Part shown: positions 2,188 through 37,521 of the stretch, piece by piece
Layout: every line of letters begins with the position of its first letter
Numbering within the stretch: position 1 is the first letter of the stretch
DNA from: a virus
Virus record (IMG/VR): IMGVR_UViG_3300043811_000081
Coordinates: 1 to 38,934 of that record
Reading direction: 5' to 3' (one strand)
DNA length: 38,934 bases
Position numbers and translations under genes: made by a program
Notes under the pieces: model-generated
Seen by the model: only the letters and a program-made list of their open reading frames with translations
What the model was told of the DNA's origin: nothing
Database searches by the model: none

Positions 2188-2447
2188 TTCTCGCGTTCTC
2201 CGAAAGGAAATTTGGCGAACCGCGCGAAGTCGATCGCGACCCCGCTCCCATGGAATTCGCAGTCCTCAAGAATCGGAAGGCGGCCGTCGATCTCGAGCCT
2301 GCAGGGCGCATAACTATCGGTGATCAGCGCGCACTGGTTGCCGCCAGAGCCCATCAGCGCGGCGGCCGAGGGTATCGCGTGCATGCCGTAGAACGGGCAC
2401 TGCCGCGGCCAGCGCACCTGAATCTGGTTTGGCTGAACGCGCGTCAT
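2184..2447 (-). CDS. hypothetical early protein
   Basis: An 87-residue protein starting at ATG 2447 in a TGATG overlap with the end of the replication-like gene, so the two are translationally coupled. It contains three dispersed Cys residues and an aromatic, acidic C-terminal half ending FPFGEREK. I do not recognise the family. Confidence 0.6.
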   Translation of the reverse strand: MTRVQPNQIQVRWPRQCPFYGMHAIPSAAALMGSGGNQCALITDSYAPCRLEIDGRLPILEDCEFHGSGVAIDFARFAKFPFGEREK

Positions 2448-3385
2448 CAGAGACTCCTCGCTTTCTGCTTCACCTCGTCGACGAGCTCCTGCGCAAACGC
2501 CTTGTCCGCCCGTTTCGGCGGCCGGGCCCGGCTCCAACGCTCACGCGCCTCCGCGATCGCCTCGCGCGAATAGCCCCGCCGGCGATTGAGTGCGACCGTG
2601 ACGAACCACTCGGGCGACTCCTTCGGCTTCGGGCGCGAACGGAGAGAGCGCAGCTCGGCAATGAAGCACTCGACCTCCTCGGTGCTGGGCAGCGCAGCGC
2701 AGAGGCGCGCGCATACGTAATCGTCGGGCTCTTTCGCATTCAGGTTCGACCGCCGCATATAACCATGCATCCACTCGCGGGCGTGGTCAAGACGGGTTCG
2801 ATCGAAGTTTTCGGGTTTTGCTCTGAGGACAGATTCGATCGATTCAATCGAAGAATCGATATTCGAATTCGATGCGCCCGCGCCCGCGCGTTCCTTATTG
2901 GCTAGTGGGTCCCCAACGGACCCAGTGGAGTCCGCTAGTGGGTCCCCAACGGTCCCACCCTGGGTCCCCAAAGGTCCCACTACGGTTTCGGCTAGTGGGT
3001 CCCCAACGGTCCCACCCTGGGTCCCCAAAGGTCCCACTACGGTTTCGGCTAGTGGGTCCCCAACGGTCCCACTAACTTCCATGAGGGCGACCTCAAGGTA
3101 GCTCAGGTGGTGGCAATCGGGTTGCGTCCCGCTGCCTTCGCGAGTCCGCATCAACCCTCGTTGCCGGAGTCCCTCCAGTGCCTTTCGGAGGTGGGCTCTC
3201 CCTTTTGTCCTCAACTGGTTTGACAGGGTTCGATGACTCACTTCGACGTCGAGGCTGCCATTCTCGAGCGCCATCCTCGTCAACTTGACCAGCGCTCGGA
3301 ACTCGCCTTCCTTGAGGGTTGGCGCGATCGCGTCGATGTGTTTCAGCGCGTTGAAATAGGGGTTTGACGCACCCTCGGGCAACAA
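2447..3385 (-). CDS. putative replication initiator-like winged-helix protein with internal iteron-like repeats
   Basis: A 312-residue protein. It starts at TTG 3385 after AAGGGAAG. Residues about 20-85 look like a winged helix-turn-helix (SHRTLSNQLRTKGRAHLRKALEGLRQRG written in parts: recognition around residues 50-75). Residues 106-162 are a low-complexity tandem repeat of a 19-residue unit (VGDPLAETVVGPLGTQG). Residues 175-312 form a basic helical domain. The layout of a DNA-binding N-terminus, an internal repeat array in DNA and a C-terminal interaction domain resembles initiators such as lambda O, whose origin lies inside its own gene. That resemblance, the first position in the early operon and the iterons are the basis for the call. 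Sequence homology to a named Rep family was not seen, so a transcriptional regulator is an alternative. Confidence 0.5.
   Translation of the reverse strand: MLPEGASNPYFNALKHIDAIAPTLKEGEFRALVKLTRMALENGSLDVEVSHRTLSNQLRTKGRAHLRKALEGLRQRGLMRTREGSGTQPDCHHLSYLEVALMEVSGTVGDPLAETVVGPLGTQGGTVGDPLAETVVGPLGTQGGTVGDPLADSTGSVGDPLANKERAGAGASNSNIDSSIESIESVLRAKPENFDRTRLDHAREWMHGYMRRSNLNAKEPDDYVCARLCAALPSTEEVECFIAELRSLRSRPKPKESPEWFVTVALNRRRGYSREAIAEARERWSRARPPKRADKAFAQELVDEVKQKARSL
2901..3072 (+). repeat. six 19-bp iteron-like repeats within two 57-bp tandem units; candidate replication origin
   Basis: The core TGGGTCCCCAACGGTCCCA, with A or C at position 12, occurs at 2906-2924, 2939-2957, 2961-2979, 2996-3014, 3018-3036 and 3053-3071. 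Start-to-start spacings are 33, 22, 35, 22 and 35 bp. Two complete 57-bp units (2934-2990 and 2991-3047) are identical. The first copy is a perfect 7-bp inverted repeat (TGGGTCC / GGACCCA) around CCAAC, and the others deviate at one base. Because 57 is divisible by three, the coding frame is kept. Ordered, half-symmetric repeats inside a putative initiator gene fit an initiator-binding array. A neutral in-frame minisatellite is the alternative. Confidence 0.7.
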
Positions 3386-3415
3386 TCTTCCCTTGAAATG
3401 AACGTGGAAGGTACG

Positions 3416-3556
3416 TCAGAATGTTAGTGGGCACCCCAGCTCTGCTGGGCCTTCCGGTGTGCCGTTGCGTGGCATCGTCGCGCGTGCCTGCCAAGACGTT
3501 CGCGGCGCTGCCAGAAGGTAAACCGGGGGGTCCTCGGCCTGCAGCGCGGCCAGCAT
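3416..3556 (-). CDS. possible 46-residue leader-region protein
   Basis: An ORF starting ATG at 3556 with AAGGAAC seven bases upstream, located between the candidate TATAAT promoter and the replication gene. It encodes MLAALQAEDPPVYLLAAPRT and continues to residue 46. Composition is not strikingly protein-like and no family is recognised. It also covers a small perfect hairpin (CCCAGC tct GCTGGG, 3435-3449), so the stretch may instead be an untranslated leader. Confidence 0.35.
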   Translation of the reverse strand: MLAALQAEDPPVYLLAAPRTSWQARATMPRNGTPEGPAELGCPLTF

Positions 3557-3602
3557 GATAATAGTTCCTTATACGGGCTAAATTCTCCTTCATTCCCCGC
3601 AT

Positions 3603-3629
3603 ATTATACTGTTGCACTCCATTTGTCGA
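3603..3629 (-). promoter_or_regulatory. candidate sigma-70 promoter for the early minus-strand operon
   Basis: On the minus strand there is a perfect -10 box, TATAAT (3603-3608), and a TCGACA -35-like box (3624-3629) with a 15-bp spacer. The local sequence is AT-rich compared with its surroundings. It faces the replication gene. The short spacer lowers confidence. No equally good promoter is seen for the divergent integrase. Confidence 0.5.
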
Positions 3630-3677
3630 GAGTATTAGAATGCGTCTGTCGCGAATTTCCGGCGCGGGTCGTGTTTA

Positions 3678-4661
3678 TTGGCAAGGTACGAGTGCGAGCA
3701 GCTGTCGCTGTTCGATTTTGGAGGTGTCGATTTGGTAGCTCTTCGCGAGACGCGTGATCGTCTGACGCAGATCACGAGCGCGCCTCTGACGGTACGGGGA
3801 TATGCCTCGGACTGGCGCGTCTTCGAGCGCTGGTGTATCCGCACCGGCAAACATTCTTTGCCCGCTGAGCCCGACACATTGAGCCTCTACGTGACGTGGC
3901 TGCTCACCGAGCTGGGCCGTAAGCTCTCGACGGCCGAGCGGCATGTCTCCGCGATCGCTCACCATCACCGCCGGAGCAAATATCCTTCGCCCGTCACTCC
4001 TGACGTGCGGCAGGTCCTCAACGCCGTGCGCCGCGAACGCAAAGAGAAGCCGCAGGGCAAAAAGGCTCTCTCGGTTCGCGATCTGGTCAAAGTAGTGAGC
4101 GCGTGCAACCCGGAAACCAACATGGGTTCGCGTGACCGCGCCCTGATCGTGCTCGGCTTTGCAACGTCGCTCCGGCGCAGCGAGCTTGCGCGTCTCGAGC
4201 TCGCCGATCTGACGTTCCACGAGCAGGGTCTATCCGTATTCGTGCCCTCGTCGAAGACAGACCAGAACGGGAAAGGCCGCTTTCTCGCGGTATGGCCGGG
4301 GCGGCGCGCCTCGACCGACCCGGTCAGGGTTCTCCGGCACTGGATTGATAAGCGCGGCAAGTGGGCCGGCCCGTTGATCACGCGGATCACGAGGCGCGGT
4401 GACATCGTGATGCGTTCGTCGATCACGGGCGAAGCGATTAACGAGATCGTCAAGCGAGTGGTGGCCCGCGCTGGCCTCGACCCGAAACCGTACGGAGCGC
4501 ATTCCCTGCGCGCCGGCGCAGTCACGGCATGCGCGGAGCTGGGCCGAAGCGATCAGGAGATCATGAATTTCTCCGGTCACGAAAGCGCCAAGGTGATGCG
4601 GATGTATGTGCGCCCCGCGCGGCTGTTCTCCGGCCGCAACCCGCTGGCAGGGGCTTTATGA
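3678..4661 (+). CDS. tyrosine recombinase / phage integrase
   Basis: A 327-residue site-specific recombinase. It has an N-terminal SAM-like core-binding domain (residues about 35-125) and a C-terminal catalytic domain. The conserved residues are visible: Arg166 in SLRRSEL, Lys193 in SSKTDQ, His275 and Arg278 in HSLRAG, His301 in SGHES, and nucleophile Tyr310 in MRMYVRP. It would integrate the phage or resolve dimers of a circular molecule. The first possible start is TTG 3678. An internal TTG at 3732 has a better ribosome site (GGAGG, 7-nt spacing), so the true protein may lack the first 18 residues. It ends NPLAGAL in an ATGA overlap with the next gene. No attachment site could be identified. 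Confidence 0.95.
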   Translation: MARYECEQLSLFDFGGVDLVALRETRDRLTQITSAPLTVRGYASDWRVFERWCIRTGKHSLPAEPDTLSLYVTWLLTELGRKLSTAERHVSAIAHHHRRSKYPSPVTPDVRQVLNAVRRERKEKPQGKKALSVRDLVKVVSACNPETNMGSRDRALIVLGFATSLRRSELARLELADLTFHEQGLSVFVPSSKTDQNGKGRFLAVWPGRRASTDPVRVLRHWIDKRGKWAGPLITRITRRGDIVMRSSITGEAINEIVKRVVARAGLDPKPYGAHSLRAGAVTACAELGRSDQEIMNFSGHESAKVMRMYVRPARLFSGRNPLAGAL

Positions 4662-7152: not shown

Positions 7153-7504
7153 CGTGAAACCGCTCGCCGTCGACGCGGCGAGGTTCCAGCCCATAAAATG
7201 ATTCGCATGGCCCGATGCCGGGCCGTGGCGTGCGCGGGCGTTGACGAGGGTTCGCAATCAGCGTTGTCGCTGCTTTGAGAAGAGAAGGCTACCCTCCGAG
7301 CTCGCGTGCGCTGCGGTCCGGCCGGACCTGTTTTCGCCCCCCCGAAGGGCGTAGGATTCTGTGGACGCGAGGGGCGCGCCGGCGTCCAGGTTGATTATAA
7401 TCAAGCAACCCGCAAATGAATGAAAACACAGGTTTTGCGCGTCCATCCGTACGGAAACCATTTCCTTGTCGCACAGCAAAATGGCGCACGCAAGTGGCGA
7501 CGTT
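7153..7504. other. 352-base non-coding gap between convergent genes
   Basis: Both flanking genes end here. The stretch contains the hairpin at 7163-7182, a palindrome TCCGGCCGGA near 7317, and a C-rich hairpin (CGCCC...GGGCG) near 7332. A minus-strand ORF (7258 to about 7449) beginning MVSVRMDAQNL exists, but it has poor ribosome-site spacing and an unconvincing protein sequence, so I do not call it. Confidence 0.5.
7163..7182. terminator. possible bidirectional terminator hairpin
   Basis: CTCGCCG (7163-7169) and CGGCGAG (7176-7182) form a 7-bp stem with a 6-base loop just after the stop at 7152. AAC and GTT extend the pairing after a two-base bulge. There is no strong U-tract, so termination is uncertain. 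Its position between convergent operons fits. Confidence 0.4.
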
Positions 7505-7804
7505 TCAACGCCGATTTCGAGCGGTTTTGGAGGGCTTTCCGTACAGTCTGCGTCTCGCTTCGCGTTCGAGCGCGTCGAGCTGTTGATTCAGCCAGTTCAT
7601 TTCGCTGACGAGCTTGGCATCGGGCCAGCTCGGGAGATCCTTGATCAGGCGCGGAAACGAGATGTTCTGTCGGACGGAGTACTTCGCCTGCTCGGAGACG
7701 CACAGCTTGCAGAGGGTCTGCACTGGCACGCCACGCCTGCTGTTCTTCGCCATCTGGTCAGCGGTCTTGCCAGGACCGCAGCGGGTGCAGTTCATCCCGC
7801 TCAT
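7505..7804 (-). CDS. Cys-pair (zinc-finger-like) hypothetical protein
   Basis: A 99-residue protein starting at ATG 7804, overlapping the recombinase stop as TAATG. CTRC near residue 5 and CKLC about 26 residues later form a likely treble-clef zinc site. The C-terminal half is helical and very basic, ending SKTARNRR. Paired CxxC motifs with a basic tail are seen in small phage DNA-binding and HNH-like proteins, but no catalytic HNH or GIY signature is visible. Coupled translation with the recombinase suggests a joint function. Confidence 0.65.
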   Translation of the reverse strand: MSGMNCTRCGPGKTADQMAKNSRRGVPVQTLCKLCVSEQAKYSVRQNISFPRLIKDLPSWPDAKLVSEMNWLNQQLDALEREARRRLYGKPSKTARNRR

Positions 7805-8439
7805 TATGTCCGCATCGCGTCCGCAACGGTAGTCGCCGGCACGCCGAGCGCGCGGGCGATCGCGCGCACGCTCTTCCCCTCGGCCCGCATGCGCAGAGCT
7901 TCGTCGCGCCGGAAGATCCGCTTCGGCCGGCCGCAGTGCTTCCCCTGTCGCTGTGCCTCCGCCACGCCGGCGCGCACGCGCTCGACGATCAGGTTGCGTT
8001 CGAACTCCGCGAAGGCGCCGAAAATCTGCATGAAGAACCGGCCGGCCGCGTTCTGCTTGTCGGTGTCGATCCCCTGCGTAACGGCGATGAAACGGATCCC
8101 GAGCGTGTCGAGCGTGGTCACGTTCTCCATGAGCTGAGAGAGCGATCGCGCGAAACGATCGAGCTTCCACACGAGGACCACATCGAACTTGCGCAGCCGC
8201 GCGTCGGCCATCAGCCGCTCGAGGACCGGGCGCCTCTTCACACTGGATTGCTTCTCGGGGTACTCGAGGAGGTGCCAGCCGGCGCGCTCGACATAGCCGC
8301 GCAACTCGGTTAGCTGCATGTCGTGCTTCTGGTCCTGAGTGCTGACCCTAACGTAAACCGCCGCGGTGATGATCCGCCGCGGCGAGTTCAGCTTGTATTC
8401 GACTGGAATGGTGACGACGTCACCAGGTTGCATGCTCAC
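7804..8439 (-). CDS. serine recombinase (resolvase/invertase family)
   Basis: A 211-residue protein of usual length for small resolvases and invertases. The catalytic domain is clear: nucleophile Ser33 in AAVYVRVSTQDQ, the LVWKLDRFARS block, and the DTDKQNAAGRFFMQIFGAFA and EFERNLIVERVRAG blocks with conserved arginines. The C-terminal HTH is RRDEALRMRAEGKSVRAIAR followed by a second helix. An N-terminal extension of about 24 residues precedes the fold. Start is GTG 8439, seven bases after the TTGCCGACTA motif and without a clear Shine-Dalgarno. It may invert a phage segment or resolve multimers. Target sites were not found. Confidence 0.93.
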   Translation of the reverse strand: MSMQPGDVVTIPVEYKLNSPRRIITAAVYVRVSTQDQKHDMQLTELRGYVERAGWHLLEYPEKQSSVKRRPVLERLMADARLRKFDVVLVWKLDRFARSLSQLMENVTTLDTLGIRFIAVTQGIDTDKQNAAGRFFMQIFGAFAEFERNLIVERVRAGVAEAQRQGKHCGRPKRIFRRDEALRMRAEGKSVRAIARALGVPATTVADAMRT

Positions 8440-14966: not shown

Positions 14967-15419
14967 CTACTCGATCGAAATGCCGACGAGCACGCGATCG
15001 ACGAGCCGGCCGTCCTTCAGCCAGCTTTTCGGATCGCGGCCGTGTTGGCGGAAGCCCGCGCGCAGCGCACAGCGCACAGCTGCGCGATTCGTTGCCGGGA
15101 TCGCCGCGACGATCCGCCGCACGCTCGTTTCGCACCCAAACCAGCGAACGGCGCCGGCGAGCTGCTCTGCGGCGCCGCGGCCGAAGACCCTCGTCGTGTG
15201 AATCTCCGCCGTGACCGCGTTCTGCGGGATGAACGTATAAAGGGCAATGAAGTGCCCGTCAGAATGCGCGATCACGTACCAGATCGCCGGGTGATCATTC
15301 GGCTGCCAGTCTGCCCGCCGCGGCGCGCTGTCGTCCGACGATGCGTTGTAAACGCCCGGGTCGCCGGCGATCGCCGCGCGGACGAGCGCGAGATCGCGAG
15401 TGCGTGTGAACCGGATCAC
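14967..15419 (-). CDS. GNAT-fold-like protein, P22 gp14-like head assembly factor
   Basis: A 150-residue protein starting at GTG 15419 in a GTGA overlap. The order of motifs resembles the GNAT fold: AIWYVIAHSDGHFIALYTFI, then VTAEIHTTRVFGRGAAEQLAG where acetyl-CoA loops usually lie, then RIVAAIPATNRAAVRCALRAG. P22 gp14 and relatives (DUF2824) show this GNAT-like pattern, and the gene lies directly before the gp7/gp20/gp16-position genes as in P22. The R/Q-x-x-G-x-G/A loop is only partly kept, so enzymatic activity is doubtful. Confidence 0.6.
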   Translation of the reverse strand: MIRFTRTRDLALVRAAIAGDPGVYNASSDDSAPRRADWQPNDHPAIWYVIAHSDGHFIALYTFIPQNAVTAEIHTTRVFGRGAAEQLAGAVRWFGCETSVRRIVAAIPATNRAAVRCALRAGFRQHGRDPKSWLKDGRLVDRVLVGISIE

Positions 15420-16753: not shown

Positions 16754-17560
16754 TTATCCGAGAACGTTGACCGAGCCCGTGAAGCTCGCTCCAAATGTCA
16801 AAGTCACGTCGTTCGCGTCCGTGACCGTGATCTGTTCGGGGATCACCAGATTTCCCGAGCCGTCGGAGACCTGAACCAGCACGGCCGTCGTCGCCAGATT
16901 GTGCGTGACCGTCACGCTCGTTTGTGAGGTCCACGAGGTCGAATACGACCGAACGGCGACGGCGAGGCCGATCACGACGACCGAGCCCGAGAAACTGGCG
17001 CCGAAAGTCAGCGTCACGACATTCGCGCTCGTCACGTTGATCTTCTGCGGAATGACGTGGTTCCCCGCAGCGTCGAAGACCTGAACCAGCACGGCCGTCG
17101 TCGCCAGATTGTGCGTCACCGTCACGCTGGTCTGTGAGGTCCACGAGGTCGAGTACTCCTGCGCCGGCGCCGCCGAGCTCGAGATCGCGATTACGACGAC
17201 TGAGCCGGTGAAACCGGCGCCGAACGTGAGCGTCACGACGTTCGCGCTGGTCACTGCGACATTCTCGGGAATGACCAGATCGCCCGAGCCGTCGAAGACC
17301 TGAACCAGTACGGCCGTCGTCGCCAAATTGTGGGTGACCGTCACGCTCGTCTGTGAGGTCCACGAGGTCGAGTACTTGCGCGCGGCGAGCAGATTCGATG
17401 ACGGCGTGCCTCCGTCGATCGCGTTGCCTGCCGCGTCATAGACGAGAACGTCGCCGGCGGAGAAGCTGCCCTTCGCCATCTGCACGACGTTGTTGTCGCC
17501 CTGGCGAAGAGCCGCCTGGATCAGCGTCGGGTCGAAATTCCCGCGGACGAGCTTCGACAT
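16754..17560 (-). CDS. repetitive beta-rich virion surface protein
   Basis: A 268-residue protein. The first 60 residues (MSKLVRGNFDPTLIQAALRQ...) are a likely virion-attachment domain. Three tandem units of about 68 residues follow, each starting YSTSWTSQTSVTVTHNLATT and containing VIPxxxxVTxANxVTLTFGA. Such repeats are typical of C-terminal tail-fibre or carbohydrate-binding beta folds. It lies between two other adhesin candidates, where P22 has the tail needle gene. No domain name is certain. Confidence 0.65.
   Translation of the reverse strand: MSKLVRGNFDPTLIQAALRQGDNNVVQMAKGSFSAGDVLVYDAAGNAIDGGTPSSNLLAARKYSTSWTSQTSVTVTHNLATTAVLVQVFDGSGDLVIPENVAVTSANVVTLTFGAGFTGSVVVIAISSSAAPAQEYSTSWTSQTSVTVTHNLATTAVLVQVFDAAGNHVIPQKINVTSANVVTLTFGASFSGSVVVIGLAVAVRSYSTSWTSQTSVTVTHNLATTAVLVQVSDGSGNLVIPEQITVTDANDVTLTFGASFTGSVNVLG
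16755..17390 (-). repeat. three tandem coding repeats of about 205 bp
   Basis: The gene encodes three successive copies of a 68-residue unit. The nucleotide conservation is high at the start of each unit (acgctcgtttgtgaggtcca, acgctggtctgtgaggtcca and acgctcgtctgtgaggtcca near 16913, 17123 and 17343), implying fairly recent expansion. Confidence 0.7.
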
Positions 17561-29778: not shown

Positions 29779-31014
29779 CTAAGCGGCGAGGCCCTCAGCG
29801 AGTCGCTCGGCCTTCATGTCCTCAAACGTCCGGCCGTCGGTTCCTTCGAGCGTGGCGAGCTTGCCCGTCTGGCTTTGCCACCTCATGAGGATCACGTCGA
29901 CGTACCGAGGATCCAGTTCCATAAGCCGCGCGCGCCGGCCGGTCTTTTCACATGCGATGAGCGTTGAGCCCGACCCGCCGAAAAGGTCGAGTACCGTATT
30001 CCGGGCCACGGAGCTGTTCTCAAGGGCGCGTTCGATGAGCTCGACGGGTTTCATCGTCGGGTGCAGTCTGCTGGCTCCCGGCTTGTTCACCTGCCAGAGC
30101 GTCGACTGGGTCTTGTCTCCAAACCACCGATCCGACTTGCCGGCGTGGTGACAGTAGAAGATCGGTTCGTGCTGGAACTTGTAGCGGCCGAAACCCCAGG
30201 CGAACGTGTTCTTCGCCCAGATGATCTGCGTGCGGACCTCGAAGCCCGCGGCCTCTAGCGCGTCCTGAAACTCGCGCTGCGACGAGGACGGATGGCAAAC
30301 GTAGAGCGAGCCGGCCGGCTTCACCGCTCTCGCATAGCAGGCGAAGGTCGCCGCGAGGAACGCTGCGAAGTCGTCGCGGCTCAGATGATCGCCCTGAAGT
30401 TTCAGGTGCTGTTCGGTATAACCCTCGTAATTGACGTTGTACGGGGGGTCGGTGAACGCCAGGTCGGCCAGCTTGCCGCCCAGCAGGCGCAACGTCGCGC
30501 TGGAGTCGGTCGCGTCGGCACAAAGTACCCTGTGCGCGTCCAGCAGCCACAAATCGCCCAACTTCGAAACTGCCGCGGGGGGCGGGTCGGGCGCCGCGTC
30601 TTCGTCCTGCTGGAGCGGAGGGCGAAGGATCTCCTCGAGTTCTGCTTCACTGAAGCCGGTGAGTCCGAGATCTGCCTCGAGCGCCTGCAGGTCAGCCATC
30701 TCCTGCTCGAGGACCTCGGTGTCCCAGCTCGATTCGTCGGCCGAGCGATTGTCCATCAGCCGGTACTGCTGCACCTGCGCCGGCGAGAGGCCTCGCGCAA
30801 CGTGCACAGGCACCTCGGTCATGCCGAGGGCTTTCGCCGCCAGCAGCCGGGTGTGTCCGACGATGATGACGCCTTCGTCATCGACGACGATCGGCTGCCG
30901 CCAGCCGAACTGGCGAATGGACGAGGCGACGACTTCGACGGCGCGATCGCTCAGCTTGCGTGCGTTCTTCTTATAGGGAGTCGGCCGGTCAACTAACCAG
31001 AGCTCGATCTCCAT
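29779..31014 (-). CDS. ParB-domain / adenine-specific DNA methyltransferase fusion
   Basis: A 411-residue protein from ATG 31014 (MEIELWLVDRPTPYKKNARK). A longer frame from 31068 lacks family support. Residues 1-75 are a ParB/sulfiredoxin-like N-terminal domain (ASSIRQFGWRQPIVVDDEGV, IVGHTRLLAAKALGM). Residues about 155-395 are a beta-class methyltransferase: DPPY at 189-192, then the FGGSGST AdoMet loop at 345-351. The order DPPY before FxGxG is that of CcrM-like enzymes. It probably methylates adenine in phage DNA for protection or packaging control. This fusion is common next to phage terminase genes. Confidence 0.9.
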   Translation of the reverse strand: MEIELWLVDRPTPYKKNARKLSDRAVEVVASSIRQFGWRQPIVVDDEGVIIVGHTRLLAAKALGMTEVPVHVARGLSPAQVQQYRLMDNRSADESSWDTEVLEQEMADLQALEADLGLTGFSEAELEEILRPPLQQDEDAAPDPPPAAVSKLGDLWLLDAHRVLCADATDSSATLRLLGGKLADLAFTDPPYNVNYEGYTEQHLKLQGDHLSRDDFAAFLAATFACYARAVKPAGSLYVCHPSSSQREFQDALEAAGFEVRTQIIWAKNTFAWGFGRYKFQHEPIFYCHHAGKSDRWFGDKTQSTLWQVNKPGASRLHPTMKPVELIERALENSSVARNTVLDLFGGSGSTLIACEKTGRRARLMELDPRYVDVILMRWQSQTGKLATLEGTDGRTFEDMKAERLAEGLAA

Positions 31015-31246
31015 CGTGCTCGCCGGCAGGAGCGGCGAGGGGCTGTTCGGTTCTGACTTCGACATCAAATTTCAGGTAGCGGGAGAGGAGCGCTCGAGCC
31101 ACGTCGCGCGAAGCGCGCCCGCGGGGGAAACGCTCAAAGAGCACGCGCTCGAGCTCGGGGCGGGAGTGGATCCCGGCCGCGATCGAGTGCGCGAGACGGT
31201 TGCTCGGGTTCAAAGGGCTCGATCGTTTTCGCTTGTGCGCGCTCAC
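30989..31246 (-). CDS. hypothetical basic protein
   Basis: An 85-residue protein from GTG 31246, overlapping the upstream stop (GTGA) and running 26 bases into the methyltransferase gene. Sequence: MSAHKRKRSSPLNPSNRLAH, then a helical part with FERFPRGRASRDVARALLSRYL. Basic and helical, it may bind DNA. No family was recognised. Confidence 0.6.
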   Translation of the reverse strand: MSAHKRKRSSPLNPSNRLAHSIAAGIHSRPELERVLFERFPRGRASRDVARALLSRYLKFDVEVRTEQPLAAPAGEHDGDRALVS

Positions 31247-32148: not shown

Positions 32149-32362
32149 TGGCCGGACCTCCTGCTGCAGGCAGAGCCGGCGCCGCGCTCTGAGCCTTTGA
32201 CGCCTGGATGCCGGCGAAGATCGCCGCGGCGAGGATGCTTCCGAGCGCGATGTACGTCGGGACCTTGCTCGTCGGTTTGATGAGGCCGCCCTGCTGAGCG
32301 ACCGATACGCCGGTTGGCGCCGCCTGCGCGAGCGACGCGAGAATTGCGAGAAATGGATTCAT
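32141..32362 (-). CDS. small membrane protein, holin candidate
   Basis: A 73-residue protein from ATG 32362 (ATGA overlap with the NusG-like gene). Two hydrophobic segments are seen, MNPFLAILASLAQAA and YIALGSILAAAIFAGIQA, joined by a Gln/Lys/Pro loop. The tail is Ala/Pro-rich. Size and topology fit a holin, but I cannot assign a family. Confidence 0.55.
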   Translation of the reverse strand: MNPFLAILASLAQAAPTGVSVAQQGGLIKPTSKVPTYIALGSILAAAIFAGIQASKAQSAAPALPAAGGPASA

Positions 32363-32946
32363 GCGTTGTCTGACTCCTTGAGGTCACTCGCGTCGACTTC
32401 GACCGAGACCGCGCGTCGAAGGATCTCGACTCCGATCACGATGCGAGTCGCGCCCTTCGTTCGCTGGACCACACCCTTCACGCCGGCGAGCGGTCCCGAT
32501 TCGACCGTCACGGCCTCCCCCACGACATACGCGCACGGGGAAGCCGCGACGGCAGCCTCGGCCGCGCGGCGAACATTGTCGATTTCGCAGTCGGGGATCC
32601 GCTGAGCGCCATCCCGTGACGGCAAAACATCAATCACTCCGGCGAGCCTCATTAGGTATCCGAGACCCGCTTCGCTGCGAGGATCGATCCGCACGAACAG
32701 ATAGCCCGGAAAGAGCGGTCGCGCCACCTTCGCAACGCGATCGCTCCACCGATGCTCGTCGATATATATGGGGAGGTACGCCTCAAACCCGTGGTCCCAG
32801 ATCCTTCGCCGAACCCGAAAGTCATGACCGGCGCGGACGCGGAGCGCAAACCAGCCCGCGACCTGCGCGCACGCGACGGCTGCTGCGTCCTGGGAGGACG
32901 TGCTTCCGCCACAACGAGTCCCGTGCTGGGGTTCGCTCTTTGTCAC
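32359..32946 (-). CDS. NusG/RfaH-family transcription antiterminator
   Basis: A 195-residue protein. Residues 31-128 are an NGN domain (GWFALRVRAGHDFRVRRRIW, FEAYLPIYIDEHRW, ARPLFPGYLFVRID). Residues 141-190 are a KOW domain (YVVGEAVTVESGPLAGVKGV followed by a strand-rich part). The LFPGYLFV segment is diagnostic for the specialised NusG paralogues (RfaH, UpxY, LoaP). It should bind RNA polymerase beta-prime clamp helices and suppress pausing or termination. It begins at GTG 32946, 12 bases after a TTGCCGACTA motif. A role in the long late operon, which contains several hairpins, is inferred. Confidence 0.85.
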   Translation of the reverse strand: MTKSEPQHGTRCGGSTSSQDAAAVACAQVAGWFALRVRAGHDFRVRRRIWDHGFEAYLPIYIDEHRWSDRVAKVARPLFPGYLFVRIDPRSEAGLGYLMRLAGVIDVLPSRDGAQRIPDCEIDNVRRAAEAAVAASPCAYVVGEAVTVESGPLAGVKGVVQRTKGATRIVIGVEILRRAVSVEVDASDLKESDNA

Positions 32947-33320: not shown

Positions 33321-34688
33321 TCACGCGCTCGCGGAGGGGAGAGCGGGGTAAGGCACTGCCGGCGCCGGCAGGTTCAGGAATCGACATAGCTCCGGCCAGC
33401 CCGAGGTCTTGCCGGCGTCCGGACCTTGTCCCATGTCCATGACCAGCAGGTCCTTCGGCCGCGAGCGGAAATAGGCCATGACCTGCTCGTTGTGTTGGCG
33501 GTATCGCGCGAGAAACAGAGGCGCGTTGAAGGTGCTCTGCCCGTAAACCATCTTGTGGAGCGTGTGGGAAAACTGGTCGACGTTCCAGTTTTCGCGATAA
33601 GGATTGTGCGCGCGGTTCCAGTGCTTCTCGATGCTCCTGATCCAGGCTTCCTCGTCGCGAAGCGTGAGGATGAACTTCGAGCCGGGATACGCTTTGTCGA
33701 GCTTCTCGTAAAGGATCGAGATCGGGAGGTCGGCCAGCGCATAGTGCGACTCCACCGCGAGCGCGCGTCCCGTCGCGGAAATTTCGTGCCACAGCGAGCG
33801 AGCCATTGCGACGCCCGCCCAGTGCAGGCTGTCGAGCCCGAGGATCCGCAGGGCGCCGTGGAGCGAGGTAGTCCCGGTCTTGTGCATCCCTATCCCGAAG
33901 ATCCGCGTCGGCAGCCGGCCGAGTTCTATCTTGGGCTGGCAGCCGAACTCGATCCGGTCGGCGCCGAAGTTCCTCGTGACGACGCCCATGCCCACCTGGC
34001 CGTAGTTCGCGATCGTGGCCTCCGAGAACTGAACGCTGTGCCAGGGGTCGGGCCCGGGACGGTTGTAGTCTTTGAACCGCATCTCGTCGCTGTGGCTGAT
34101 CGCCGAGAGAAAGCGGCTCTCGATGTCAACGGGCTGGCAGCCGATCCGCTGCAGGCGCAGGATCATGTCGCGGTCGTCGGGGGCGTACGTTGTGAAGCGC
34201 TCGTCGTACCCACCGATTTTGAGAAAGGCGTGCCGGGTCATGCCGATACGGCCGCAAATGCCGTAATCGGTCAGTGGTTGCTCCATCGTCGGCCGGAAGA
34301 ACGGCTCGCCGTCGCCGCTCGAGCTGCTGAGCTGCTCGGCGATGTAGGAGGCGAAGCCGGCGCCGGTGAAATTGTCAGCGTCGATGTTCACCAGGACGTC
34401 GGCGCCTTCGATGATTCCGCAGCGATGGGCCATGTTCTTCGCGTGGGCCATCCGGAACGGCCCGACCCAGTCGTAGCGATAGACAGTGAGCCTCCCGCTC
34501 GCGATGAACGGCGCAAAGGCCTCGCCCTGCAGGAACGCCTCGAGGGTGTCGTCGCCGCCGTAATCAACCACCACGAATTTGCATCGCGCATAGTCGGCGT
34601 TGTCTGCGATGTTCTTCAGCAGGGTCGCGGCGAGGTGAGCCTGGCGGCCCTTGCAGGTGGTACAGAACACGATTAGAGGGTCGGTCAC
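33321..34688 (-). CDS. glycosyltransferase-sulfotransferase fusion
   Basis: A 455-residue two-domain enzyme. Residues 1-245 are a GT-A glycosyltransferase: IVFCTTCKGRQAHL at the N-terminus, metal-binding D-x-D in NIDADN (101-106), and GGYDERFTTYAPDDRDMILR (159-178) with the acceptor-site acidic residues. Residues 260-450 are a sulfotransferase: the PAPS 5'-phosphosulfate loop at 266-275 (IGMHKTGTTS) and the 3'-phosphate region at 341-352 (LTLRDEEAWIRS). It could add a sugar and then sulfate it on host envelope, phage or nucleic-acid targets. Start GTG 34688 overlaps the upstream stop. Such a fusion is unusual for a phage. Each domain is confident; the target is unknown. Confidence 0.85.
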   Translation of the reverse strand: MTDPLIVFCTTCKGRQAHLAATLLKNIADNADYARCKFVVVDYGGDDTLEAFLQGEAFAPFIASGRLTVYRYDWVGPFRMAHAKNMAHRCGIIEGADVLVNIDADNFTGAGFASYIAEQLSSSSGDGEPFFRPTMEQPLTDYGICGRIGMTRHAFLKIGGYDERFTTYAPDDRDMILRLQRIGCQPVDIESRFLSAISHSDEMRFKDYNRPGPDPWHSVQFSEATIANYGQVGMGVVTRNFGADRIEFGCQPKIELGRLPTRIFGIGMHKTGTTSLHGALRILGLDSLHWAGVAMARSLWHEISATGRALAVESHYALADLPISILYEKLDKAYPGSKFILTLRDEEAWIRSIEKHWNRAHNPYRENWNVDQFSHTLHKMVYGQSTFNAPLFLARYRQHNEQVMAYFRSRPKDLLVMDMGQGPDAGKTSGWPELCRFLNLPAPAVPYPALPSASA

Positions 34689-35120: not shown

Positions 35121-35855
35121 CTACGCGGCGCGAGCGCGCACGCGATCGCCGCGGCGCGGCCAGACGTCGAGGATCGAGCTCCGCAGATGGAAGAGCGCAT
35201 TCGCTTTCAGCTGCACAACCCGCGAAATGTGAATCCCGAGCCGCTCGGAGATCTCCTTCAGCGTCAGGCCGCCCCAGAAATACAGAACGACGACGACTCG
35301 TTCCTTCTGAGGCAGGAGTTGCGCCTCGTATCGCAGGATGTCAGCGATCGCTGCGCGCTGGAGCTCGTAGTCCGGCGCATTCGCGTCGATATCGCGGATG
35401 CGCTGGATCGCCGCGCGGTGTGTGCCGTGCTTGTCGTCATCGAGGCTGCCGAGATCGATGCCATGGGTTTCCGCCTGCAGCTCGTGGAATTCCTCAAGCG
35501 ACACGCCGAGCTCGCACGCGACATGCTCGCTCGACGGGGTCGCGAGGTTCTTGTGGCCTGCCTTCGATGTCGCCTCGTCGATCGCCTTGAGCTTTCGCCG
35601 GCGATGGCGCGAGGCCCAATCGCACTTACGCAGGTAATCGAGGATCGCGCCGCGGATCCGACCCTCCGCGTAAGTCTTCAGTTTGTGGCCGCGCGCGGGC
35701 TCGTAGCTGTCGACTGCGGCGATCAGTCCCATCGTCCCGACGGAGACGAGTTCGTTGAACTGGATCGGGACACCGCTCTTGGCGATGCGCGAGGCTATGA
35801 GTTCGACCTGTGCGAGGTGCTCGAGAATCAGCCTGTCGCGATCGGCGGAGTCCAC
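35121..35855 (-). CDS. sigma factor of the FliA/WhiG (sigma-28) type
   Basis: A 244-residue sigma factor with regions 2, 3 and 4. Region 2 (residues 12-80) includes IQFNELVSVGTMGLIAAVDS and KLKTYAEGRIRGAILDYLRK, the core-binding and -10 recognition helices. Region 3 lies at 84-130 (VACELGVSLEEFHEL). Region 4 at 178-225 has LLPQKERVVVVLYFWGGLTL and KEISERLGIHISRVVQLKAN. There is no region 1.1, as in FliA. Start is GTG 35855, six bases after a TTGCCGACTA motif, so it may control itself. It overlaps the previous gene by 28 bases. Likely role: redirecting RNA polymerase to phage promoters. Confidence 0.88.
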   Translation of the reverse strand: MDSADRDRLILEHLAQVELIASRIAKSGVPIQFNELVSVGTMGLIAAVDSYEPARGHKLKTYAEGRIRGAILDYLRKCDWASRHRRRKLKAIDEATSKAGHKNLATPSSEHVACELGVSLEEFHELQAETHGIDLGSLDDDKHGTHRAAIQRIRDIDANAPDYELQRAAIADILRYEAQLLPQKERVVVVLYFWGGLTLKEISERLGIHISRVVQLKANALFHLRSSILDVWPRRGDRVRARAA

Positions 35856-36175
35856 ACTTGGTAGTCGGCAAAAGCGCGCGGCCTGCGAATGAGGAGGGAA
35901 TCGTGTCTCGCCTGGGTGCGGACGATGAACTCTTCAAGCTGCTGATTGAGGACGTTGTTGTACGCTCTCTGCGCCTGGCGGGCGATGTAAACGTTCGACT
36001 GCAGAACGCGGAGCGTTTCACGCGTGAGCCAGTCGCCAGGCATCAGCCGATTGCGCCCGAAGCCGGGTGGGATCGAGATCAGTTTGCGCGCGGGCTGCCA
36101 GATGAGCTGCTCGGGGTCGGCCGCCGCGGCGACGGCCGCGGCCCCGAGGAAGCGGAGGAACCCGCGGCGTTTCAT
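35828..36175 (-). CDS. protein with twin-arginine-type N-terminus, unknown function
   Basis: A 115-residue protein starting MKRRGFLRFLGAAAVAAAAD at ATG 36175 (ATGA overlap). RRGFL plus a short hydrophobic Ala-rich stretch matches a Tat signal. The mature part has LIWQPARKLISIP, a motif shared in part (KLISIP) with the upstream gene, then a helical region (RQAQRAYNNVLNQQLEEFIV). Its last 28 bases overlap the sigma gene and encode FADYQVWTPP over motif E. Function unknown. Confidence 0.65.
   Translation of the reverse strand: MKRRGFLRFLGAAAVAAAADPEQLIWQPARKLISIPPGFGRNRLMPGDWLTRETLRVLQSNVYIARQAQRAYNNVLNQQLEEFIVRTQARHDSLLIRRPRAFADYQVWTPPIATG
35862..35871 (-). promoter_or_regulatory. TTGCCGACTA motif, copy E (sigma-28-like gene)
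   Basis: A perfect copy, six bases before GTG 35855 of the sigma gene, and lying inside the end of the upstream coding sequence (Phe-Ala-Asp-Tyr). Conservation inside a coding region supports a nucleotide-level function. Confidence 0.6.
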
Positions 36176-36744
36176 AGCGTGACGTGGCGCGTCCGGGCCA
36201 GTTTTGAGACGGGCGTCGATCCAAGCAACTCGGCGCGATAGAGCGGCCTGAAATGCAGCGCAGAGGTCTCGACCTTCGTCACAACGAAGCGGCCTGGTTG
36301 TCCCCCGATCGTGATGACGTCGCCCACGCCAAAAAACGCGGAGTAGCACGTTATCGTCGGAGGCGTCTGCTTCTGCGGGATCGAGATCAGCTTGCCGCCG
36401 GCGCCGCGTCTCACGAGGACCTCGGCATAGTTGGTGAGCAGACTCCGTACCGGGTCGTAAACGCGAACCAGCCTCGCGCGCGGGACAAAGGAACGGACCT
36501 GCGGGGGCGGAAGGATGTAGCTGCCGTGAGCCCAGTAGGTGGATTGCAGCGGTCCGACCTTGAACTCGAGGCGCCCGGTGCCGAATCTCGCACGGATCGA
36601 TCTCTCGAGGTCGGGGAACGGGTTCAGGTCAGCGATGCCGATCCACGTCGAGCCGACGGTTGTCCATTCCTCCTCCTCGCTCCGGAGCAGGGGAATGGCG
36701 AGCGCGGCGCCGGCAAGCGCGCCGAGGAACCCGCGCCGGTTCAT
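36172..36744 (-). CDS. protein with twin-arginine-type N-terminus, unknown function
   Basis: A 190-residue protein starting MNRRGFLGALAGAALAIPLL at ATG 36744, with GGAG six bases upstream. The N-R-R-G-F-L-G motif and following hydrophobic stretch fit a Tat signal. The mature part is beta-rich with KLISIPQKQTPPTITCYSAF and a segment (FFGVGDVITIGG) partly duplicated in the next upstream gene. A structural or envelope role is possible. No family was recognised. Confidence 0.65.
   Translation of the reverse strand: MNRRGFLGALAGAALAIPLLRSEEEEWTTVGSTWIGIADLNPFPDLERSIRARFGTGRLEFKVGPLQSTYWAHGSYILPPPQVRSFVPRARLVRVYDPVRSLLTNYAEVLVRRGAGGKLISIPQKQTPPTITCYSAFFGVGDVITIGGQPGRFVVTKVETSALHFRPLYRAELLGSTPVSKLARTRHVTL
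36308..36334. repeat. 27-bp exact direct repeat, copy 1
   Basis: Identical to 36801-36827. Both copies are read in the same frame on the minus strand and encode FGVGDVITI in adjacent genes. Identity at third codon positions implies a recent duplication or gene conversion. Confidence 0.85.
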
Positions 36745-36745
36745 T

Positions 36746-36898
36746 TTACGCTCCACCCCTCGCACTCATAAACGACCAGCATACTGCCCATCCGAGCAGT
36801 ATCGTGATGACGTCGCCCACGCCAAAATCACCGCATCGCGGATGCGTGGGTGCATTCAGCGCGAAGCTCAGAAAGAGGACGGCAGCGACCAGCCTCAC
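36746..36898 (-). CDS. 50-residue small membrane protein
   Basis: GTG 36898 overlaps the stop of the sigma-like gene (GTGA) and the frame runs to TAA 36746, just before the next ATG. The peptide begins MRLVAAVLFLSFALNAPTHP, continues with GDFGVGDVITI and a second hydrophobic segment (LLGWAVCWSFM). Two membrane segments or a signal plus one helix are likely. It carries the second copy of the 27-bp repeat. Function unknown. Confidence 0.6.
   Translation of the reverse strand: MRLVAAVLFLSFALNAPTHPRCGDFGVGDVITILLGWAVCWSFMSARGGA
36801..36827. repeat. 27-bp exact direct repeat, copy 2
   Basis: Second copy of the repeat at 36308-36334, 493 bp apart, within the 50-residue membrane-protein gene and in the same reading frame. 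Confidence 0.85.
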
Positions 36899-37521
36899 GC
36901 GGGCTCTCGCAGCAGGCGCCGAAGCCCGTCGACGGCTTCGCGGTGCAGTTGCCCGGCGCGCCGCGCACTGATCCCCATCTGGCGCCCCGCATCGCGAAGC
37001 GTCGGCTCGGCCGGCGAATAGTAAGCCGCCAGCAGGCGTCGCTGATCTTCGGGCAGGAGCGCGGCAGCATTGGCCAGCCGGCGCCGCGCACGGTTCGAAT
37101 CGACGATCGCGACCGCGTCGGGAATATAACAATTTTGTGATAATTCCGGCGCCGCATCGAGCGACTGATGGTCCTCCTCGCGCCAGTTCTTACGCCGGAC
37201 GCTCTCGAGGATCGCCCCGCGAACGACGGGCCGCGCATACGCGCTGAACGGCGCCCCGTTGTGCTCAGCCGGCCGGTAACGGGTCGCCGCGTGAGTGAGG
37301 GCGAGATTGCCAGTGGCGACGAGGTCGTCGAGCAAAAAACACGACGGCAGCCGGCGATGCACGCCCTCCGCGATCTGCCGGACGAGCAGAAGATGCCCCG
37401 CCACCAGATCATCACGCCGCGCTAAAACTCGCTCGCGATGGTCACCCGACTCGATCGATTGGATTGCAGTAAGAGGCTGCGCTGGCCTCCGAACGGCGTT
37501 ACTGTCTGCCGTCCCGTTCAT
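36895..37521 (-). CDS. second sigma-70-family-like protein (regions 2 and 4)
   Basis: A 208-residue protein. Residues 39-113 match sigma region 2 (LVAGHLLLVRQIAEGVHRRL, FLLDDLVATGNLALTHAATR, PFSAYARPVVRGAILESVRR). Residues 155-204 match region 4 (LLPEDQRRLLAAYYSPAEPT, LRDAGRQMGISARRAGQLHR). The two are joined by a short linker with no region 3. It starts at ATG 37521 and has a host-type promoter in front, so it is probably made early from host polymerase. The region 4 helix-turn-helix is less canonical than in the 35121-35855 gene. Confidence 0.78.
   Translation of the reverse strand: MNGTADSNAVRRPAQPLTAIQSIESGDHRERVLARRDDLVAGHLLLVRQIAEGVHRRLPSCFLLDDLVATGNLALTHAATRYRPAEHNGAPFSAYARPVVRGAILESVRRKNWREEDHQSLDAAPELSQNCYIPDAVAIVDSNRARRRLANAAALLPEDQRRLLAAYYSPAEPTLRDAGRQMGISARRAGQLHREAVDGLRRLLREPA

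Follow-up and report, generated by a model that had tools for sequence, protein, structure and literature searches.

A candidate lambda-type replication origin inside a putative initiator gene of an uncultivated soil virus

Why should a viral gene carry, in the middle of its coding sequence, an ordered series of palindromic DNA sites? The question is raised by the open reading frame at 2447-3385 (-) of a virus record that contains a P22-type portal and a Terminase_3 large subunit; we refer to the whole stretch analysed, 38,934 nucleotides of IMG/VR record IMGVR_UViG_3300043811_000081, as the window. An earlier note on this DNA had proposed that the repeats are a replication origin lying within the gene of its own initiator. 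By analogy with known phages we consider it quite likely that replication starts here from a lambda-type intragenic theta origin, and the proposal gains from constraint at the DNA level, from an adjoining unwinding-like patch, from the lambda-like anatomy and from arrays in related viruses.

The iteron array

A pattern search for TGGGWCCNNNNNGGWCCCA, allowing up to two mismatches, returned six matches in the 38.9-kb window, every one of them with 0 mismatches and all on the plus strand (2906..2924, 2939..2957, 2961..2979, 2996..3014, 3018..3036 and 3053..3071). The starts are thus separated by 33, 22, 35, 22 and 35 bp, exactly as first described, whereas dinucleotide shuffles of the window contain 0.37 such matches on average and none of 100 shuffles reached six. 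Each iteron is a 19-bp interrupted palindrome with 7-bp arms and a 5-bp spacer; both arms are perfect in the copy at 2906, in line with the one perfect inverted repeat noted before, and one arm position is mismatched in each of the remaining five. Instead of the single varying internal base reported before, two positions vary: position 12 is C or A, and position 15 is A at 2906 and T in the other five copies.

The two 57-bp units noted previously (2939-2995 and 2996-3052) are indeed identical, and in frame, and Tandem Repeats Finder delimits the array as 2906-3072 with a period of 57. Since the second unit duplicates the first, the six copies are not independent. The suggestion that the alternation of 22 and 35 bp places the sites on related helix faces does not hold, as at 10.5 bp per turn their phases are 0, 51, 86, 206, 240 and 0 degrees. 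The exact iteron was absent from every other contig in a search of viral contigs, DnaA-box-like sites were not enriched, and GC skew, which had been put forward as a check, has no clear extremum at the array.

The gene and its product

The reading frame has a TTG start and encodes a protein of 312 amino acids, P0001, which we infer to be an initiator from the combination of the reading frame, the iterons and a candidate duplex-unwinding element. The iterons occupy fraction 0.33-0.51 of the gene, i.e. its middle, and in gene direction the order is an N-terminal part of about 100 residues, the six iterons, an A+T-rich patch and a C-terminal part. Residues 1-104 (3074..3385, -) may form a winged-helix DNA-binding domain: residues 31-87 give sub-threshold Pfam matches to HTH_Crp_2 (E 0.022), GntR and Rrf2, all of them winged-helix families. 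These sub-threshold matches are what speaks for the winged-helix-like N-terminus proposed earlier; AlphaFold gives no confident model of it (pLDDT about 40, low confidence, both for the whole of P0001 and for residues 1-104). The C-terminal coding part (2447..2794, -) had no family match and is, from its position, a candidate partner-recruitment domain.

Homologues of P0001 were found neither in phages, plasmids, viral contigs and genome contigs nor among PDB sequences, and its N- or C-terminal part alone likewise had no match in viral contigs. There was no curated family match above threshold, and comparison with 42 records of related viruses gave no homologue, only one chance-level match, in the relative G006. 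Aligning P0001 with the N-terminal domains of relatives by hhalign gave a probability of 0.5%; this comparison carries little information, and its leave-one-out controls yielded no score. The PHROG and Pfam families of phage replication protein O did not match P0001 at E-values up to 1, and because the O-family profiles do not recognise it we keep it out of that family. The protein and the repeat sequence are therefore unmatched in the databases searched, while the arrangement is one already known from lambda.

Genomic context

A tyrosine integrase gene (3678-4661, +) is divergent from the initiator gene and 292 bp away from it; a separate serine recombinase is encoded at 7804-8439 (-), and a similar pair is present in the relative G001. 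None of the window proteins scanned was recognisable as a helicase, primase or polymerase, in keeping with dependence on the host for replication, and among the scanned downstream proteins there was no match to a loader or helicase family, whether of the lambda P or the DnaC type. Rfam families and tRNAs were not found in the window, nor were relatives of the portal found in genome contigs.

Other features of the window include a ParB-like N-terminal domain fused to an N6/N4 DNA methyltransferase (29779-31068, -), two sigma-70-like factors (35121-35855 and 36895-37521, both -) near a NusG-like antiterminator (32359-32946), and a 219-bp tandem repeat of 2.5 copies (16836-17376) inside the reading frame 16754-17560 (-), which probably encodes a repetitive virion protein.

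Related soil viruses

Relatives were found through their terminase and portal, and their contigs were examined over all or most of their length. G004 has most structural genes and their order in common with the window, and once the two contigs are treated as circular permutations its gene 35680-36792, between a serine recombinase and HTH/sigma genes like its counterpart in the window, is the positional equivalent of 2447-3385; it contains AGTTGCCTTGCAAGGCAACT and, 42 bp further on, a close copy of it. In G001 the equivalent is the gene 3185-4549, paired with a divergent integrase as in the window, which contains several AGTCACGTTCAGACT-type sites. The candidate initiator gene of G007 has two CGAGCGAAATTAATTTCGCTCG-type sites and matches phrog_678, "replication initiation O-like", at 1e-5, and a gene of G042, with its own palindromic repeat pair inside, matches the same family at 4e-30. 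G003, G006 and G022 each have two intragenic copies of further, differing palindromes. By sequence, G001 is related to G006 and G006 to G022, G003 being only marginally so. The genes of G001, G003, G004, G006 and G022, which no family profile names, are presumably initiators, judging from position and layout. Since the intragenic palindromes of these relatives differ in sequence from those of the window, it is the layout that recurs while the site sequence changes.

Comparison of the repeats in relatives, which had been suggested before, thus revealed intragenic palindromes in several viruses, but not in all. G012 is close to the window by its portal, and its positional equivalent (780-2009, before HTH and sigma genes) is without palindromic repeats. 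The earlier note had held that relatives keeping the gene without the repeats would refute an origin; G012 goes part of the way toward this, with a gene that is equivalent in position and has no detectable homology to that of P0001. In G016 three interrupted palindromes, AGTTCCCGATACGTGCGGAACT (L081:5633-5712), are spaced by 23 and 35 bp, compared with 22 and 35 bp in the window; this array lies outside the initiator-like gene, about 570 bp upstream.

Repeat matches in G032/G033 and G040 were rejected as repetitive coding sequence, and the G012 palindromes at 34273 and 35073 were rejected as intragenic arrays since they lie upstream of genes. Paired palindromes before small genes, likely operators, were observed in G007 (L017:7219-7280) and in G012 (L080:14273-14306 and 15073-15106). 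The G007 contig (IMG/VR 3300036859_000658) also contains a CRISPR-like array (L018:18319-19605, about 38.3-39.6 kb), in which a 35-36-nt repeat, GCCGAAACAGCCCTAGGATTCTTCGTGCACTGCGAC, recurs about 18 times, for the most part every 70-75 bp; its copies are near-identical at one end and ever more degenerate toward the other.

A candidate unwinding patch beside the array

Next to the array, on its C-terminal side, lies an A+T-rich patch (2795..2869) that may serve as a duplex-unwinding element: it is rich in TTCGAT-type repeats and has 59% A+T over 75 bp, against a mean of 36%, and its core (2804-2863) ranks second for low stability among the 60-bp segments of the 38.9-kb contig. The one segment that is still less stable (3554-3613) falls in the A+T-rich, promoter-like intergenic region between the initiator gene and the divergent integrase (3554..3629, -), where a sigma-70-like site (3629-3601), a candidate promoter of the initiator gene, is recognised by consensus match.

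For nine viruses, with candidate genes picked by their repeats and not by their stability, the flanking 170 bp to either side of the array were set against every placement in the contig concerned. Pooled over the nine, the C-terminal flank was unusually unstable (Fisher P 2.2e-4, or 2.1e-3 when the window is left out), whereas the N-terminal flank was not (P 0.32). Individually, the C-terminal side was significant in the window (0.007), G003 (0.005) and G001 (0.045) and not significant in G004, G006, G007, G022 and G042, while G037 showed a pattern opposite to the pooled trend.

Comparison with known origins

The lambda origin, inside gene O, has 18-bp hyphenated inverted repeats, to each of which a dimer of O binds, and next to them an AT-rich region that the O-iteron complex destabilises (PMC6022878). 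In the lambda reference four annotated iterons (39034-39118) span fraction 0.39-0.48 of gene O, whose least stable 60 bp follow directly on their C-terminal side; the origins of P27 and 933W have six iterons (PMC7466680). The window resembles these phages in having interrupted palindromes of 18-19 bp that number 4 to 6 and sit midway along the initiator gene, a putative one in the window, and resembles lambda in the A+T-rich patch on their C-terminal side. It differs from lambda in that P0001 is not recognisably homologous to O, the iteron sequence is unrelated, and no P-like loader was found next to the P0001 gene. Moreover, the spacing alternates between 22 and 35 bp with a duplicated 57-bp unit, where lambda has 20-24 bp, and the patch is only 59-62% A+T, in a genome of 64% G+C. 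The phrog_678 genes of G007 and G042 have the same order as here, a replication-protein N terminus followed by intragenic palindromes and a C-terminal part, although P0001, unlike them, has no match to that family.

In the repABC plasmid p42d of R. etli, oriV lies within repC, and a low-stability A+T-rich region is required for replication (PMC3155836). The candidate origin here is similar in being situated within a putative initiator coding sequence and in having such a region. In contrast, p42d relies on the A+T-rich region rather than on an iteron array and is a different type of replicon, and no repA, repB or RepC was found among the window proteins scanned.

Alternative explanations

One may also consider that the palindromes are operators through which P0001, or another phage repressor, governs how the initiator gene or the divergent integrase is transcribed, with replication starting elsewhere. 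Palindromes do precede genes in relatives (at 34273 and 35073 in G012 and at 7219 in G007), and the weak HTH signal in the reading frame would suit a repressor. The array, however, begins more than 300 bp into the gene, with at least about 480 bp between it and the promoter-like region, and its six copies adjoin an unwinding-like patch in a layout whose lambda equivalent is an origin, so that we regard control of transcription as improbable.

Alternatively, a linker in the protein may have grown by tandem duplication, with the DNA palindrome as a by-product. The identical, in-frame 57-bp units indicate that a recent duplication did occur. In one 57-bp unit, however, the 19-mer is found in two codon frames (the copies at 2961 and 3018 being in the other frame) and encodes different peptides. 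Synonymous recoding of the reading frame, in which the protein was kept and codons were redrawn from usage in the window (n=5000), did not recreate the array: 4715 of the 5000 versions had no site, and the maximum was two. The two-frame copies and the rarity of the motif after recoding thus point to a constraint on DNA rather than on peptide, and in relatives, too, palindromic DNA is kept while the encoded peptides differ. A linker peptide made of repeats leaves the palindromes unaccounted for, and we consider an explanation at the protein level very unlikely.

Equally unlikely are iterons for copy control or partition, i.e. a centromere, bound by another protein such as the ParB_N-methyltransferase fusion (29779-31068): the window does encode a ParB-like domain, but it is fused to a DNA methylase and not close to the array, and initiation is what the patch and the gene context suggest. 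Least credible of all is that the palindromes serve the tyrosine integrase or the serine recombinase in recombination or as accessory sites (arm sites of an integrase, or the res site of a resolvase), as, despite the integrase gene 292 bp away and the serine recombinase at 7804-8439, G004 and G007 lack a relative of the window integrase in an all-ORF comparison and yet have intragenic palindromes.

A possible mechanism and its implications

If the locus is indeed an origin embedded in its initiator gene, binding, opening and recruitment can be proposed by analogy with lambda O. P0001 would bind, probably as dimers and through its N-terminal domain, to the six half-palindromic iterons that lie midway along its gene, and the resulting nucleoprotein complex would strain and open the A+T-rich patch at about 2795-2869, downstream in gene direction. 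The C-terminal part of P0001 would then recruit the host helicase, directly or via a loader, after which the host replisome would copy the phage DNA.

A bolder extension is that P0001 belongs to a family of initiators without kinship to lambda O which reached a gene-embedded origin independently, and that a group of P22-portal soil viruses swaps non-homologous initiators, each with its own iterons and melting patch in its gene, in which case initiator and origin would move together as a self-contained cassette; this we hold to be possible though doubtful.

If the lambda-type intragenic origin is real, the locus provides a specific candidate origin for a group of uncultivated soil viruses. Palindromic iterons and a melting patch within one gene can, in addition, point to phage initiators that escape protein searches. 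Because the repeat sequences vary between viruses while the layout stays, such loci also invite the question of how a protein and the DNA sites it recognises evolve jointly when a single stretch of bases specifies the one and contains the other.
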